Part shown: positions 35,164 through 41,310 of the stretch, piece after piece
How the letters are laid out: every line of letters begins with the position of its first letter
Position numbering within the stretch: the stretch's first letter is position 1
DNA from: an uncultured Polaribacter sp.
GTDB lineage: Bacteria; Bacteroidota; Bacteroidia; Flavobacteriales; Flavobacteriaceae
Reading direction: 5' to 3'
DNA length: 64,000 nt
NCBI GenBank assembly: GCA_913047375.1
Contig: CAJWTV010000001.1
Coordinates: 124,001-188,000 of the forward strand
Notes under the pieces: model-generated
Seen by the model: only the letters and a program-made list of their open reading frames with translations
What the model was told of the DNA's origin: nothing
Database searches by the model: none
Program-made: the position numbers and the translations under genes

Positions 35164-36306
35164 ATGACACTTATAAGAAATAAAAATATTGAACTCAATA
35201 GTATAGAAGATGCCATAGAGGATATAAGAAATGGGAAAATAATAATAGTCGTTGATGATGAAAATAGAGAAAATGAAGGTGATTTTTTAGCAGCAGCAGA
35301 AATGGCTACACCAGAGATGGTGAATTTTATGGCAACACACGGTCGAGGTTTAATTTGTACTCCTTTAACTGAAAATCGTTGTAGAGAATTATCTTTAGGA
35401 ATGATGGTTCAAAATAATACAGACCCTATGGAAACAGCATTCACTGTTTCAGTTGATTTAAGAGGAAAGGGAGTTACTACTGGAATTTCAGCTTCAGACA
35501 GAGCATTAACTATTAAATCATTAGTTGATAAAGAAACCAAATCATTCGATTTAGCAAGACCTGGCCATATATTTCCTTTAAAAGCTAAAGAAGGTGGTGT
35601 TTTAAGAAGAACAGGGCATACCGAGGCTGCTATAGATTTTGCTAGATTAGCTGGCTTACAACCAGCCGGAGTGATTGTCGAGATAATGAATGAAGATGGC
35701 ACCATGGCTCGTTTACCTCAACTTATAGAAGTAGCTGAAAAATTCGATATTAAAATTGTTTCTATAGAAGATCTAGTAGCTTATAGAATGGAGCACGATT
35801 CTTTAATAAAAAAGAAAGAAGATTTTATGTTACAAACTCGTTTCGGTGAATTTCGAGTAAGAGCATATCAGCAAACTACAAATAATCAAGTTCACTTAGC
35901 ATTAACTAAAGGAACTTGGTCAAAAGAAGAGACTGTATTAACAAGGGTAAATTCAACACTTGTCAACAATGATATTTTAGGAACATTAACTAACAATGCA
36001 GATAAAAAATTAGATCGAATGTTTCAAGTAATAAATGATGATGGAAAGGGAGCTATTTTATTTATCAATCAGCAAAATCAATCTCAAAATTTATTAGGCA
36101 GATTAGAAATCTTAAAAGAGAATCAATCAAACGGAAAATTAAAAGCTCCTGTTATCGCTATGGATAATAGAGATTTTGGAATTGGCGCTCAGATCCTTCA
36201 TGATATAAACGTTAATAAATTAAAGTTAATTACTAATACAAAGCAAACTAAGCGGGTTGGAATGATTGGCTATGGTTTAGAAATAATAGATTATGTAAGA
36301 TATTAA
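35164..36306 (+). CDS. ribB: 3,4-dihydroxy-2-butanone-4-phosphate synthase with degenerate GTP cyclohydrolase II-like C-terminus
   Basis: VVDDENRENEGDFLAAAE, THGRGLICTPLT, GHIFPLKAKEGGVLRRTGHTEAAIDF; C-terminal domain lacks the Cys zinc ligands. Confidence 0.93.
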   Translation: MTLIRNKNIELNSIEDAIEDIRNGKIIIVVDDENRENEGDFLAAAEMATPEMVNFMATHGRGLICTPLTENRCRELSLGMMVQNNTDPMETAFTVSVDLRGKGVTTGISASDRALTIKSLVDKETKSFDLARPGHIFPLKAKEGGVLRRTGHTEAAIDFARLAGLQPAGVIVEIMNEDGTMARLPQLIEVAEKFDIKIVSIEDLVAYRMEHDSLIKKKEDFMLQTRFGEFRVRAYQQTTNNQVHLALTKGTWSKEETVLTRVNSTLVNNDILGTLTNNADKKLDRMFQVINDDGKGAILFINQQNQSQNLLGRLEILKENQSNGKLKAPVIAMDNRDFGIGAQILHDINVNKLKLITNTKQTKRVGMIGYGLEIIDYVRY

Positions 36307-36322
36307 TCTGATAATAAATTAA

Positions 36323-36772
36323 CTACCCTAACTTGGGTTGCTTAAAATATTTAAAAGGGACAAATAGCATTCCAAAACATTGACTTTCTTCCTTAGCCAT
36401 ATTCTTATGATGTATTTTATGTGCTTTTCTTAATCCTCTTAAATAGGGATTATTCGTGTTTTTAAACCATTTAAACCTTTGATGTATTAGAACATCATGA
36501 ACTAAGAAATATGCTAGTCCATAAAATAAAATACCTAAACCTATAAAGAATAAATATGTTTGAGGGGTATAACTTCCAAAATAGAACAAAGCGATACTAG
36601 GAATAGCAAATACAACAAAGAATGCATCATTTTTCTCAAAACCATTATATTTTGGTTGATGATGATCTTCATGAAGATACCAACCAAAACCATGCATAAT
36701 ATACTTGTGTGTACACCAGGTTACACCTTCCATTATTATAAAAACTCCTAAAGTAATTAATACGTACATCAT
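36323..36772 (-). CDS. crtZ: Beta-carotene hydroxylase
   Basis: THKYIMHGFGWYLHEDHH, VLIHQRFKW, HKIHHK histidine clusters; start overlaps the crtB stop. Confidence 0.92.
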   Translation of the reverse strand: MMYVLITLGVFIIMEGVTWCTHKYIMHGFGWYLHEDHHQPKYNGFEKNDAFFVVFAIPSIALFYFGSYTPQTYLFFIGLGILFYGLAYFLVHDVLIHQRFKWFKNTNNPYLRGLRKAHKIHHKNMAKEESQCFGMLFVPFKYFKQPKLG

Positions 36773-37614
36773 TATATTATATTCAATTTGTATTTCACGT
36801 AGCTCCTAGCTAGAAGATTAATTTTCATTGGATCAGAAATACGAATTCTTGTATCCATAATTTTTTCGGAAGGAACTTTATTTAATTTTTTTAATAATCT
36901 TCTATAATATCTATAAGCCATATATACTCCAAACTTTGCTTCTACAGGTAATTTCAATATACCATTAGAGAATGCATACTCAAAATCTGCTTCTATTTCA
37001 TCAATAATTAAATCTTTTGAAGCTTTATCTAATTTACCTAAATCTATATTTGGAAAATAAGAACGATTTAAGACCTCAAAATCATCTTTCAGATCTCTTA
37101 AGAAATTTACCTTCTGAAATGCAGAACCTAATCGCATAGCTGCATCTTTTAAGTCATCAAACATTTTATCATTACCGTTTACAAAAACCTTTAAACACAT
37201 TAAACCAACAACGTCAGCGGAACCATAAATGTATTCATCATACTCTTGTTTAGTAGTATATTCTGTTTTATGTAAATCTGCCTTCATACTCTTTAAAAAG
37301 GCTTGCACCATTTCATCAGGTATATTATATCTACTTACAGTTTGTTGAAAAGAATTTAAAATAGGGTTTAAACTGATTCCCTGTTCTTTAGATGTATAAT
37401 AATCTTTCTCAAAGTGAGCCATTAACTCTTCTTTGTTATATTCATGAAATGTATCTACAATCTCATCCGCAAAACGAACAAAAGCATATATATTATAAAT
37501 ATCTGTTCTAATTTTTGTTGACAGCATATTTACGGCAAGAGAGAATGATGTACTATATTTTTTAGTAACTAATTTGCTACAATCATTAGAAACATCATCA
37601 AATAATTCTTTCAT
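36772..37614 (-). CDS. crtB: Phytoene synthase
   Basis: YAFVRFADEIVD, GSADVVGLMCLKVF, AFQKVNFLRDLKDD. Confidence 0.95.
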   Translation of the reverse strand: MKELFDDVSNDCSKLVTKKYSTSFSLAVNMLSTKIRTDIYNIYAFVRFADEIVDTFHEYNKEELMAHFEKDYYTSKEQGISLNPILNSFQQTVSRYNIPDEMVQAFLKSMKADLHKTEYTTKQEYDEYIYGSADVVGLMCLKVFVNGNDKMFDDLKDAAMRLGSAFQKVNFLRDLKDDFEVLNRSYFPNIDLGKLDKASKDLIIDEIEADFEYAFSNGILKLPVEAKFGVYMAYRYYRRLLKKLNKVPSEKIMDTRIRISDPMKINLLARSYVKYKLNII

Positions 37615-37616
37615 AC

Positions 37617-39086
37617 TTATAACTGTTTTTTTATAATTAATTCTGATGCAATCTTTCCCGAGATTAATGCAGGAGGTACTCCAGGACCAGGAACTGTTAA
37701 TTGACCTGTAAAATACAAATTATTAACTTTACCACTTCTAATTTTTGGTCTTAAAAAAGCAGTTTGTAAAAGTGTACTAGCCATACCATAAGCATTTCCC
37801 TTGTAAGAGTTATATTCTTCTTTAAAATCTTTTACACAAAAGGATTTTTTGAATATAACACTTTTTTTAACTTCTTGATTTGTTAATTTTTCAAACCTAT
37901 CTATTATTTTATGGAAGTATTCCTCTCTTAATTCTTCTGTATCTTCAATTCCTGGTGCCAAAGGAATTAAGAAAAAACCAGCTTCTTTGCCCTCTGGAGC
38001 GGAGGTTACGTCTGTCATGGAAGTGAAATTAGCATAAAATAACGGCTCTGTTGGCCATTTGGGGTTATCATAAATTTCCTTTGCATGCAAATCAAAATCA
38101 GTATCAAAAAATAACGTGTGATGACTTGCATTAATAATTTTTTTATCAAAACCCACCCAAAACAATAAAGAAGAGGGTGCTAATATTTTTTTATCCCAAT
38201 ATTTTTCAGAATATTGTCTAGAACTTTTATCTAACAATGTTTCTGTGTGATGATAATCTGCTCCACTTAAGACCAAATTAGTGTCAATATTTTTGCCATT
38301 TACAAGCAAACCAGAAACATTATTTTGTGGGTCTGTTAGAATTTTCTCTACGTTCGCATTTACCTCAAAATTCACTCCTAAAGAGCTCGCCAATGAAACC
38401 ATCCCTTCGATGACTTTATACATTCCTCCTCTAGGATGCCAAGTACCTAATCCAAAGTCTGCATAATTCATAAAATTATAAAAACCTGGAGTATTATCGG
38501 GTTTTGCGCCTAAAAATAATACAGGAAATTCTAAAATTTTAATTAGCTTAGGACTCTTAATATTTTTTCGAACCTGTTTTCTAATAGTAGTAAAGAACTG
38601 ATTAACTCTAGCGACTGTTTTGGTTGTAACTAATTCTAATGGAGAAATTCCTGGCATTTTATATACTACATCTACAACGGCTATTTCATAATTTGCCTTT
38701 GCAGAATCTAAGAAAGATTTTAGGTGCTTTGCACTACCCTTTTCTTCTTTTTCAAACATTTTATAGATATCTTCTAAGTTTTCAGAAACTTTTAAAGAAG
38801 AATTTTCACCAAAATACACTTCATAACCCGGACTTAATTTATCTAGTATATAGTAATCTGAGGGCTTCTTCCCAAAATCTGCAAAAAAGCGTTCAAAAAC
38901 ATCTGGCATCCAATACCAAGATGGTCCAATATCAAATGTAAAACCATCTTTTTTATATTGTCTTGCTCTTCCTCCTAAAGTATCATTTTTCTCAAGCACA
39001 GTTACATTGTAACCTGCTTTTGCAAGATAACAAGATGCAGAAAGGGAGGAGAAACCAGATCCTATAATATAAATATGTTTTTTCAT
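37617..39086 (-). CDS. crtI: Phytoene desaturase
   Basis: IIGSGFSSLSASCYLAKAGYNVTVLEKNDTLGGRA, YFTGQLTVPGPGVPPALISGKIA. Confidence 0.95.
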   Translation of the reverse strand: MKKHIYIIGSGFSSLSASCYLAKAGYNVTVLEKNDTLGGRARQYKKDGFTFDIGPSWYWMPDVFERFFADFGKKPSDYYILDKLSPGYEVYFGENSSLKVSENLEDIYKMFEKEEKGSAKHLKSFLDSAKANYEIAVVDVVYKMPGISPLELVTTKTVARVNQFFTTIRKQVRKNIKSPKLIKILEFPVLFLGAKPDNTPGFYNFMNYADFGLGTWHPRGGMYKVIEGMVSLASSLGVNFEVNANVEKILTDPQNNVSGLLVNGKNIDTNLVLSGADYHHTETLLDKSSRQYSEKYWDKKILAPSSLLFWVGFDKKIINASHHTLFFDTDFDLHAKEIYDNPKWPTEPLFYANFTSMTDVTSAPEGKEAGFFLIPLAPGIEDTEELREEYFHKIIDRFEKLTNQEVKKSVIFKKSFCVKDFKEEYNSYKGNAYGMASTLLQTAFLRPKIRSGKVNNLYFTGQLTVPGPGVPPALISGKIASELIIKKQL

Positions 39087-39092
39087 GGAATT

Positions 39093-39128
39093 AATTGTTT
39101 AACAAATATACTTATATATTAAACAATT
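39093..39128. promoter_or_regulatory. Perfect inverted repeat between carH-like gene and crtI
   Basis: AATTGTTTAA (39093-39102) - 16 nt - TTAAACAATT (39119-39128). Confidence 0.5.
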
Positions 39129-39148
39129 TTTGATATTTGAACAGAGGT

Positions 39149-40042
39149 TTATAGAACGTTTAGTAAATCTTTAACAGATTCGTATAAGTAAATATTGGAT
39201 TTAAAATCTAACTCTTTTACATCAGCAGTTTTTTTACCTATTGCAATTAAATTATGTTTAGATTGTTTTAAGATATCGTCTATTTCATTAAAATAATCAA
39301 CAATTTTGTCATTATAGGGTCTTATAGTCATAGATGTTACAAAAGATAATTCTCTTTCAGTTTCGAAAAAATAACTCAAATTATATAGTGGCAGACTCTG
39401 TCCCAAATATATTGTATGATTTCCTCTTAAAACTAATTCATAATTTAAATATAAAAGTCCTAGCTCATGGATCTCATTTTCGGGCAGAAATAAAACATAG
39501 GTTTTTTTAGGGTTAGTAACAGTATATTGTAATTTCTCTGTGTTTATTTGAATTTTCTGAGCTATTAAATTTGATATAAAATGCTCGTGTGCTGGAAGCA
39601 GTGTATCTGTGTGCCACAACATTCCAATTTGCTCTAAAAATGGGATAAATACATCTTTAAAGATGTCTCTAAATGTTATTTTATGAAGTAACTTGTTATA
39701 AGTCTCATTAAATAATGATTTATCAAATTGGAACATTGACAATTTAAAAGAATTAATGGCTTCATCATTTACCGCATGGCTAAAAGCAAGATCTCTAGAA
39801 GCATCTGTAATAGCTTCATCAGACATTTCAGCAATTTTAGAAATTTTAATATTGTTATTATTTAATAAAACAATATTTAATAACTTAGTTAAATTTTGAT
39901 GCGAATAATATCTAATATTCGTTTCCGTTCTTTTGGGCTTTAATAAGTTATATCTTTTTTCCCAAATCCTAATAGTGTGGGATTTGATACCGGATATGTT
40001 TTCTAAATCTCTGATCGTGAAATTTTGCTTAATATTGTTCAA
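39149..40042 (-). CDS. MerR-family regulator with B12-binding domain, CarH/LitR-like
   Basis: MerR HTH (FTIRDLENISGIKSHTIRIWEKRYNLLKP), Wx9EH (WHTDTLLPAHEH), ExHxxG (ENEIHELG); TTG start. Confidence 0.9.
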   Translation of the reverse strand: MNNIKQNFTIRDLENISGIKSHTIRIWEKRYNLLKPKRTETNIRYYSHQNLTKLLNIVLLNNNNIKISKIAEMSDEAITDASRDLAFSHAVNDEAINSFKLSMFQFDKSLFNETYNKLLHKITFRDIFKDVFIPFLEQIGMLWHTDTLLPAHEHFISNLIAQKIQINTEKLQYTVTNPKKTYVLFLPENEIHELGLLYLNYELVLRGNHTIYLGQSLPLYNLSYFFETERELSFVTSMTIRPYNDKIVDYFNEIDDILKQSKHNLIAIGKKTADVKELDFKSNIYLYESVKDLLNVL

Positions 40043-40162
40043 ACTTTTTCAATTTTTTTTAAACAAAGATAATTGTTTTTAATAAAAAATAAAATTTTGT
40101 TTAGAAAGTTGTAACATTATGGACAGTTTTACATCTAATAATTAAAAAGAATTAAATAGGTA

Positions 40163-40654
40163 TTGAAAAATTTAGAAACTAAATTTTTATTAGATTTTGA
40201 AAATAATCAAAATATTGTTCACAAGGTTTGTAGAATATATACGACTGACAGTGATGCTCACAAAGATTTATTTCAAGAAATTACCATTCAACTTTGGAAA
40301 AACTATTCTAAATTTCGTGGCGATTCAAAATTTAGTACCTGGATGTATAGAGTTGCATTAAATACTGCAATTTCATTATATCGTAAATCTTCCAAAAGAA
40401 TTAAGACGGAAGACTATAGCGATATAGAATATAAAATTCAATCCGTTGAATATGATGATAATCAGGAGCTACAATTAAAGGCTCTTTATGCTGCAATTCA
40501 TCAATTAAATGATATAGACAAAGCATTAATATTTTTATACTTAGAAGACAAACCGTTCAAAGAAATATCTATAACATTAGGTATTTCTGATATAAACGCA
40601 AGAGTAAAAATGAACAGAGCAAAGGAAAAATTAAGAACTATTTTATTATCATAA
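40163..40654 (+). CDS. ECF-type RNA polymerase sigma factor
   Basis: DLFQEITIQLWKNYSKFRGDSKFSTWMYRVALNTAISLYRK, C-terminal sigma4 region; TTG start. Confidence 0.92.
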   Translation: MKNLETKFLLDFENNQNIVHKVCRIYTTDSDAHKDLFQEITIQLWKNYSKFRGDSKFSTWMYRVALNTAISLYRKSSKRIKTEDYSDIEYKIQSVEYDDNQELQLKALYAAIHQLNDIDKALIFLYLEDKPFKEISITLGISDINARVKMNRAKEKLRTILLS

Positions 40655-40656
40655 TT

Positions 40657-41310
40657 ATGGATTTATTAGACAAATACAAAAAAACTTGGGGTCTTCAACC
40701 TAAGAATATTGATAAAATTTCTTCAGAAGAAATTTATAAAATGGCGCGTTCTAAATCTATATCTATTGTAAAATGGATTTTTATTTTAGGCCTTATAGAG
40801 TTTTCAATTGGAATTATTTTTATGCTTTTTAACACCTATCAAAACCAAAATTATGATATGTTAGCCACGGATTTGTTAACCAGAAAATATTTATTATATC
40901 TATCATTTTTAACAGTTCCATTTTTATTATATTTTCTAAATATGTTTTATAATAACTACAAAAACATATCTGTTACAGATAATACTAGGGTATTAATGGA
41001 AATGATTAAAAAAACCAGAAGATCTGTTCGCAACTATATATTATTTAATTTAGCTGTAATAGTATTAGGTTCAATTATTATAACTTTTATTTCGTTAAAA
41101 AACTCTACTAGAGATATTATTCTTCGAAATCAAATCATTAATTTTAAATTAAATTTTGATGATGATGAATCGATAATTATAATAATGGTAATTATCACAG
41201 TAATCATCTTAACAGTAATTTCGAGTTTTTACCAGCTTATTTATGGTAATTTATTAAAAAAAATAAATAGAAATTATAAAGAATTGAAAAAATTAGATAA
41301 CGATTTATAA
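40657..41310 (+). CDS. Membrane protein, 4-TM hypothetical, co-encoded with ECF sigma factor
   Basis: 2-nt gap after the sigma gene; four hydrophobic segments. Confidence 0.65.
   Translation: MDLLDKYKKTWGLQPKNIDKISSEEIYKMARSKSISIVKWIFILGLIEFSIGIIFMLFNTYQNQNYDMLATDLLTRKYLLYLSFLTVPFLLYFLNMFYNNYKNISVTDNTRVLMEMIKKTRRSVRNYILFNLAVIVLGSIIITFISLKNSTRDIILRNQIINFKLNFDDDESIIIIMVIITVIILTVISSFYQLIYGNLLKKINRNYKELKKLDNDL

Follow-up and report, generated by a model that had tools for sequence, protein, structure and literature searches.

A 64,000-nt stretch of the genome of an uncultured Polaribacter sp. (assembly GCA_913047375.1, contig CAJWTV010000001.1, positions 124,001–188,000 of the forward strand; hereafter the window) encodes a MerR-type regulator, carH, directly upstream of the carotenoid genes crtI, crtB, and crtZ. 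Our best reading, to which we give a probability of roughly 0.68, is that its product is a CarH/LitR-type, light-responsive dark repressor of a light regulon that extends across the family Flavobacteriaceae. For this, the family, fold, and motifs of the protein were computed, as were its candidate operator, the operator's spacing and genome-wide distribution, and the target genes, with 151 genomes of the family as the sample of relatives.

The regulator matched the Pfam domains MerR_1 (PF13411, E = 1.9e-15) and B12-binding_2 (E = 5.5e-9), and its top NCBIfam match was TransRegCarH, with 69.6 bits, far under the 400-bit equivalog cut-off. Among PDB sequences, Thermus CarH was the best match (E = 1.8e-13 with the single sequence, 6.7e-21 with a profile), and the other top solved relatives were related cobalamin photoreceptors. 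Comparison of an AlphaFold model (predicted local distance difference test score, pLDDT, of 87.9) with PDB folds returned full-length Thermus thermophilus CarH (TtCarH) at all of ranks 1 to 12; the full-length template modelling scores (TM-scores) were low (0.50–0.57) and the root-mean-square deviation large, which reflects domain placement, and the CarH cobalamin-domain chains gave target TM-scores of about 0.74–0.81. The MerR helix-turn-helix (HTH) comprises residues 8–75 with the motif RxWEKRY, followed by the four-helix bundle and the Rossmann domain, and the recognition-helix residues R25, W27, E28, R30, and Y31 were invariant in 52 sequences.

The first-pass annotation, made from the sequence of the window, had pointed to two CarH hallmarks, Wx9EH in the four-helix bundle and the cobalt-ligand motif ExHxxG, and both were recovered: the former as W143/E153/H154 (W and E153 in 73 of 73 relatives, H154 in 68) and the latter as E190/H192/G195 (in 73, 72, and 71 of the 73, respectively). 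They are not there by chance, because they are kept in 68 to 73 of 73 relatives and the best sequence and fold match in the PDB is Thermus CarH. Alone, these two motifs do not prove CarH function. In addition, the second B12 motif of CarH, x41-SxT/V (PMC9304148), was found as S237-M-T239, exactly 41 residues past G195 (S in 38/73 relatives), and from the SignatureFinder set for CarH, formed by GxxW, EH, GxxH, and GxxxP (PMC11796333), the regulator presents GxxW (G140), EH, and GxxxP (G214–P218). The Trp of the window protein is followed by His (H144), at the position of H132 in TtCarH, the upper cobalt ligand of the light-adapted protein (PMC10442372).

A carH homologue was detected in 124 of the 151 genomes, a few of them HTH-only matches. 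After reading of the homologue list, the window type (type I) was assigned to 112 genomes and a type II to 10, with none in the remaining 29. Type II is a diverged MerR-B12 form, with W-G replacing W-Q/H, encoded near crtI and usually not directly upstream of it (L087–L097). The carH-crtI-crtB-crtZ synteny was kept in nearly every type-I locus across the Flavobacteriaceae, and from this synteny and spread it follows that the CarH-type protein is a long-standing resident of the family and no local oddity.

Two copies of an inverted-repeat operator were found, one before crtI and the other over the carH start codon, each together with a −7 promoter element (Table 1). The crtI copy and its own −7 element lie inside the 62-nt gap between carH and crtI; these features and the copy at carH go beyond what the first-pass annotation had seen. 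Written as TTGTTTAAC-N14-GTTAAACAA around the −7 element TATATTTG, this operator was present with up to 3 mismatches in 56 of 92 carH–crtI loci, versus 22 of 1840 shuffled sequences, and the spacer measured 14 nt in 55 of those 56; because the motif was derived from the same carH–crtI sequences, this mismatch count carries less weight than the constancy of the spacer and the genome-wide tests. The carH copy follows the general form TAnnTTTG-TTTAA-N16-[T/A]TGAACAA, and in 59 of 63 loci its right arm begins precisely with the start codon. In the window, this arm is the carH start itself (TTG AAC AA, Met-Asn-Asn), and this coincidence explains the conservation of Met-Asn-Asn and of the TTG start, shared by 47 of 73 relatives. 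Each copy spans the −7 element and the transcript start, a place that would suit a repressor. A classic −33 TTG at N19 was not found by eye upstream of crtI, and our claim is limited to the −7 element. The half-site core, TAAACA, fits the TnnACA half-sites used by known CarH operators (PMC9304148).

Genome-wide, the exact N16 operator gave 203 sites in the 151 genomes, against 30 for eight other spacings together and 3 for a reversed N16 control. The 98 genomes carrying it included 94 of the 112 with type I, 2 of the 10 with type II (which are mostly without the N16 operator), and 2 of the 29 without CarH. When one site per carH genome was discounted (for crt), the difference persisted, with 57/112 type-I genomes versus 2/29 carH-less ones (p = 1e-5), bearing in mind that, through the shared ancestry of the genomes, these operator p-values overstate independence. 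This distribution bears on whether the operator could belong to another transcription factor, the CarH-like protein merely adjoining one site. Such an explanation may draw on the fact that CarH is matched to this operator by sequence comparison, on the exact sites in the two carH-less genomes (both incomplete assemblies: G080, 81% complete, and G149, 73% complete), and on nearest relatives that keep carH with degenerate arms. However, carH has such a site on either side, one of them overlapping its start codon, and the sites track carH type across 112 genomes; furthermore, the RxWE(K/R)RY recognition-helix residues and the TnnACA half-site match those of known CarH. We therefore consider another owner of the operator very unlikely.

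Outside the crt loci, 55 sites were read, 54 of them exact N16 and one N17, with a few assigned by neighbourhood only. Fasciclin genes, often divergent to mnmA, were the commonest neighbour, with 15 sites (L137, L139, L145, L149, L152, L196, L200, L206, L209, L212, L217–L219, L228, and L229). Eleven sites precede photolyase/cryptochrome genes, approximately four a folE/DUF2805/SDR cluster (SDR, short-chain dehydrogenase/reductase), three DUF2867–SDR genes, and three htpG//fabH or TetR genes, whereas three others, in three genera, lie between divergent proteorhodopsin and blh (beta-carotene dioxygenase) genes (L150, L201, L223). Single cases included a GHMP-kinase/UbiA pair, a desaturase, and a peroxiredoxin (L225), and the neighbours of 13 sites were secreted or unassigned.

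The window's own assembly is a 1.48-Mb metagenome-assembled genome (MAG), 68% complete. It contains one exact operator, that of crtI, and four 1-mismatch sites, three of them informative: one at carH and two on a 25-kb photorepair contig, C20, where 0.025 would be expected. The first of these two (L231/L232 being the C20 sites) lies about 30 bp before a row of genes for TetR, ABC1 kinase, flavin reductase, DUF2867, and three photolyase/cryptochrome-type proteins. The second lies about 30 bp before a 140-aa gene, DUF2805, and folE, with SDR, glutathione peroxidase, TspO, SRPBCC, and photolyase genes further on. Both appear to head candidate operons of a DNA-photorepair/pterin island, which also includes trxB. 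The fourth match (G000:C5:32026) falls inside a coding gene and was taken as chance, and the 2-mismatch sites were dropped, being 15 versus 14 in the reversed control.

With stress genes among the putative targets (the peroxiredoxin, htpG, and, in the window's genome, glutathione peroxidase and trxB), fasciclin as the commonest of them, and a pair of genes for an extracytoplasmic function (ECF) sigma factor and a membrane protein divergent to carH, one could also think of a repressor that responds to photo-oxidative or redox stress, or to carotenoid/retinal intermediates, and not to light directly, as for Myxococcus xanthus CarA, which is relieved via a separate pathway. Against this, the CarA hallmark is the loss of the Wx9EH Trp (PMC9304148), and W143 was found in 73 of 73 relatives; moreover, the crt unit showed no gene of the CarS or CarQ type. 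Such a stress repressor is, in our judgement, highly improbable.

Regarding the chromophore, the first-pass annotation had predicted light induction of carotenogenesis dependent on adenosylcobalamin (AdoCbl). The well-supported part is CarH-type, light-controlled repression of crt, for which the operators at crtI and carH and the shared light regulon are further evidence. For the AdoCbl part, the sequences make AdoCbl plausible as the most probable chromophore of flavobacterial CarH, because the ligand motifs are nearly invariant and an adenosyltransferase (PF01923) was found in 118 of the 122 genomes with carH and in 21 of the 29 that lack it. The window's genome encodes an adenosyltransferase of this PduO type on another contig, and methylmalonyl-CoA mutase, an AdoCbl enzyme, on C20 beside the photorepair island.

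Several observations weigh against a light-responsive repressor of the CarH/LitR type. In the protein, the third B12 motif, x22-27-GG, is missing: a single G269, 29 residues past T239, is followed by K (G-K/R/Q/H in relatives). Pfam B12-binding (PF02310) was not matched up to E = 5 in four members, although the Rossmann fold is predicted, and NxxH (N189) occupies the GxxH position. The H132 equivalent is Gln in 64 of 73 relatives, so that His is not a feature of the clade; it appears in four separate Polaribacter lineages, including that of the window, nested among Gln forms in a FastTree tree. In TtCarH, the H132A variant is still mostly tetrameric in the light (PMC10442372), and CtMerR, with Arg at the upper-ligand position, still dissociates in the light (PMC11796333); therefore, Gln does not exclude function. 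On the DNA side, tandem 11-bp TnnACA direct repeats were not found in the operator, whose TAAACA cores form an inverted repeat with N16 between 8-bp arms. The half-site centres lie 24 bp apart, out of any 11-bp register, and consequently the DNA-bound assembly must differ from that on the tandem repeats of Thermus and Bacillus CarH. In addition, 18 of the 112 type-I genomes have no exact site, and the nearest relatives of the window (L031, L032, L033, L042, L065) show degenerate operator arms at crtI and carH, with 3–7 mismatches. In these relatives crt may have been rewired or freed from light control, although G155, one of the group, still has a site with a single mismatch at the folE-type island. 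The strongest counter-case is G065 (L086), a near-complete, streamlined 1.7-Mb genome with an intact-motif CarH and one operator, in which no adenosyltransferase or methylmalonyl-CoA mutase was detected. G065 might import AdoCbl, or its CarH might not need it.

Part of this evidence would also suit a B12-independent, class II-like LitR, in which the regulon would be the same, light would be sensed by another photoreceptor (LOV, BLUF, or cryptochrome), and a degenerate B12 domain would only oligomerise. The match to B12-binding_2 with PF02310 unmatched is what has been reported for PmlR/PplR, GG is missing, in Pseudomonas a comparable set of genes (phrB, cryB, folE, SDR) is regulated through two half-sites set apart by a spacer, and the lack of detected AdoCbl genes in G065 goes in the same direction. 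On the other hand, Wx9EH and ExHxxG are nearly invariant, needlessly so for a non-binding domain, the upper-ligand His arose, according to the FastTree tree, on at least four parallel occasions in Polaribacter, carH co-occurs with adenosyltransferase, and no partner photoreceptor is encoded beside carH. On balance, a B12-independent LitR seems doubtful to us.

Returning to a light-responsive CarH, we infer that this protein is the one bound at the operator, that it acts there as a repressor until released by light, and that it carries AdoCbl as its chromophore. In the dark, CarH would bind the paired TTGTTTAA/TTAAACAA half-sites covering the −7 elements and 5′ starts of carH and crtIBZ, keeping these genes low, and in the window's genome would act likewise via the two slightly weaker sites at the photorepair/pterin island. 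Light, most likely by photolysis of adenosylcobalamin, with H192 below and W143/E153 above the cobalamin and H144 able to form a bis-His light state, would release CarH, and the regulon would come on. Both CarH (PMC4557120) and class II LitR are dark repressors released by light.

That the flavobacterial CarH clade governs a family-wide sunlight regulon via the inverted-repeat operator, including the proteorhodopsin//blh promoter in some genera, has in our view somewhat better than even odds. If true, a photosensor based on B12 (or a modified B12) would control the timing with which marine flavobacteria make their light pump, their pigments, and their DNA photorepair machinery, and vitamin B12, a compound that many marine bacteria have to import, would be tied to how an abundant group of ocean bacteria responds to light. 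The light responses of proteorhodopsin-bearing flavobacteria differ, with no known switch (PMC3587595), and among the papers searched we found none joining CarH to light regulation in flavobacteria or to the control of proteorhodopsin. Now that an operator is defined and a repressor named, the carotenoid and proteorhodopsin responses become directly testable, and the variants with Gln or His at the key ligand form a natural set for photochemistry.

Table 1. Genes, operators, and promoter elements around carH (positions within the window).
Feature	Position	Strand	Remarks
ribBA	35164..36306	+	DHBP synthase + GTP cyclohydrolase II; convergent, end of crt unit
crtZ, carotene hydroxylase	36323..36772	-	FA_hydroxylase superfamily
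crtB, phytoene synthase	36772..37614	-	SQS_PSY
crtI, phytoene desaturase	37617..39086	-	above NF058655 (CrtID) cut-off
crtI operator, TTGTTTAA-N16-TTAAACAA	39095..39126	-	exact; 9-bp arms TTGTTTAAT/GTTAAACAA, 14-nt spacer
crtI −7 element, TATATTTG	39103..39110	-	within operator, overlaps right arm
carH, CarH-type MerR regulator	39149..40042	-	297 aa, TTG start
carH operator, TTGTTTAA-N16-TTGAACAA	40035..40066	-	1 mismatch; left arm abuts −7 element
carH −7 element, TATCTTTG	40064..40071	-	TAnnTTTG type; at same place in at least 60/62 relatives
ECF sigma factor	40163..40654	+	divergent from carH; kept beside carH in Polaribacter-type loci
Hydrophobic 217-aa protein, possible anti-sigma factor	40657..41310	+	follows sigma gene; without Pfam match

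As the first-pass annotation had stated, carH, crtI, crtB, and crtZ are co-oriented and tightly packed, with junctions of +62, +2, and −1 nt. Its convergent gene after crtZ is also there, although not as ribB alone, since the domain search identified a bifunctional ribBA. CrtI scored 715 bits against the NCBIfam cut-off of 640 for CrtID, the bifunctional phytoene/3,4-desaturase, which hints at a 3,4-desaturated, saproxanthin/myxol-like product. The pair formed by the ECF sigma factor and the hydrophobic protein was seen divergent from carH only in Polaribacter-type loci, and most other genera lack it at this position. LitS/CarQ-type sigma factors occur near litR/carH in other organisms, and CarQ-like control by this sigma factor, as a member of the carH system, is considered no more than possible because of that absence.

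The absence of a lycopene cyclase gene (crtY) was likewise right for the locus, but its value as a clue to the pathway was rejected. In Polaribacter septentrionalilitoris, crtY follows crtZ, and a complete congener has a CrtYcd-type gene in the crt locus. However, in the five nearest relatives crtY lies away from the crt locus, next to truB/uppP, and contig C2 of the window's assembly begins within truB, at the place where these relatives hold crtY. Because of the unlinked crtY of the nearest relatives and the contig end at the same spot, its absence is uninformative.

Among known systems, the crt cluster of Chryseobacterium lacus, also Flavobacteriales, shows a crtI-crtB-(hypothetical)-crtZ-cyclase layout; its crt transcripts are light-induced, with no car/lit gene detected by the authors, who named no regulator (PMC7064467). 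CtMerR of Chloracidobacterium thermophilum (8JBS), which binds AdoCbl and goes from tetramer to monomer in the light (PMC11796333), resembles the flavobacterial protein in its CarH-like B12 domain, whose upper-ligand residue is changed (to Arg in CtMerR and to Gln in most flavobacteria), but it belongs to another phylum and has the full GxxW/EH/GxxH/GxxxP signature, in contrast to the flavobacterial NxxH.

With class II LitR (PplR/PmlR of Pseudomonas), the flavobacterial system shares a regulon of photolyase/cryptochrome, folE, and SDR genes (there phrB, cryB, folE, and SDR), an operator of two spaced half-sites (TGTACA-N12-TGTACA in Pseudomonas), and B12-binding_2 as the sole Pfam match in the sensor part. 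By the class II definition, a four-helix bundle only and no B12 ligand motif, this Pfam pattern fits, but the His-ligand motif and the predicted Rossmann fold are present. Class II LitR is reported to be B12-independent and to act with a short LOV protein, whereas here the protein retains the His ligand and Wx9EH, and the gene its linkage to crt; half-site sequence and spacing also differ, and proteorhodopsin/blh and fasciclin genes are among the targets.

Finally, with class I LitR, the CarH of Thermus thermophilus, Bacillus megaterium, and Myxococcales, the regulator has in common the architecture of MerR HTH, four-helix bundle, and Rossmann domain, the motifs Wx9EH and ExHxxG, the His after Trp (in the window, not in most relatives), the TnnACA-type half-sites, the adjacent crt genes, and an operator over promoter elements. 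Unlike class I, the flavobacterial protein is without GG and GxxH, leaves PF02310 unmatched, and in most relatives has Gln at the His132 position; its operator is an inverted repeat with N16 in place of tandem 11-bp direct repeats, with the right arm fused to the start codon, and its putative regulon reaches photorepair and proteorhodopsin. In conclusion, flavobacterial CarH departs from known CarH by the form of its operator and by motif loss.

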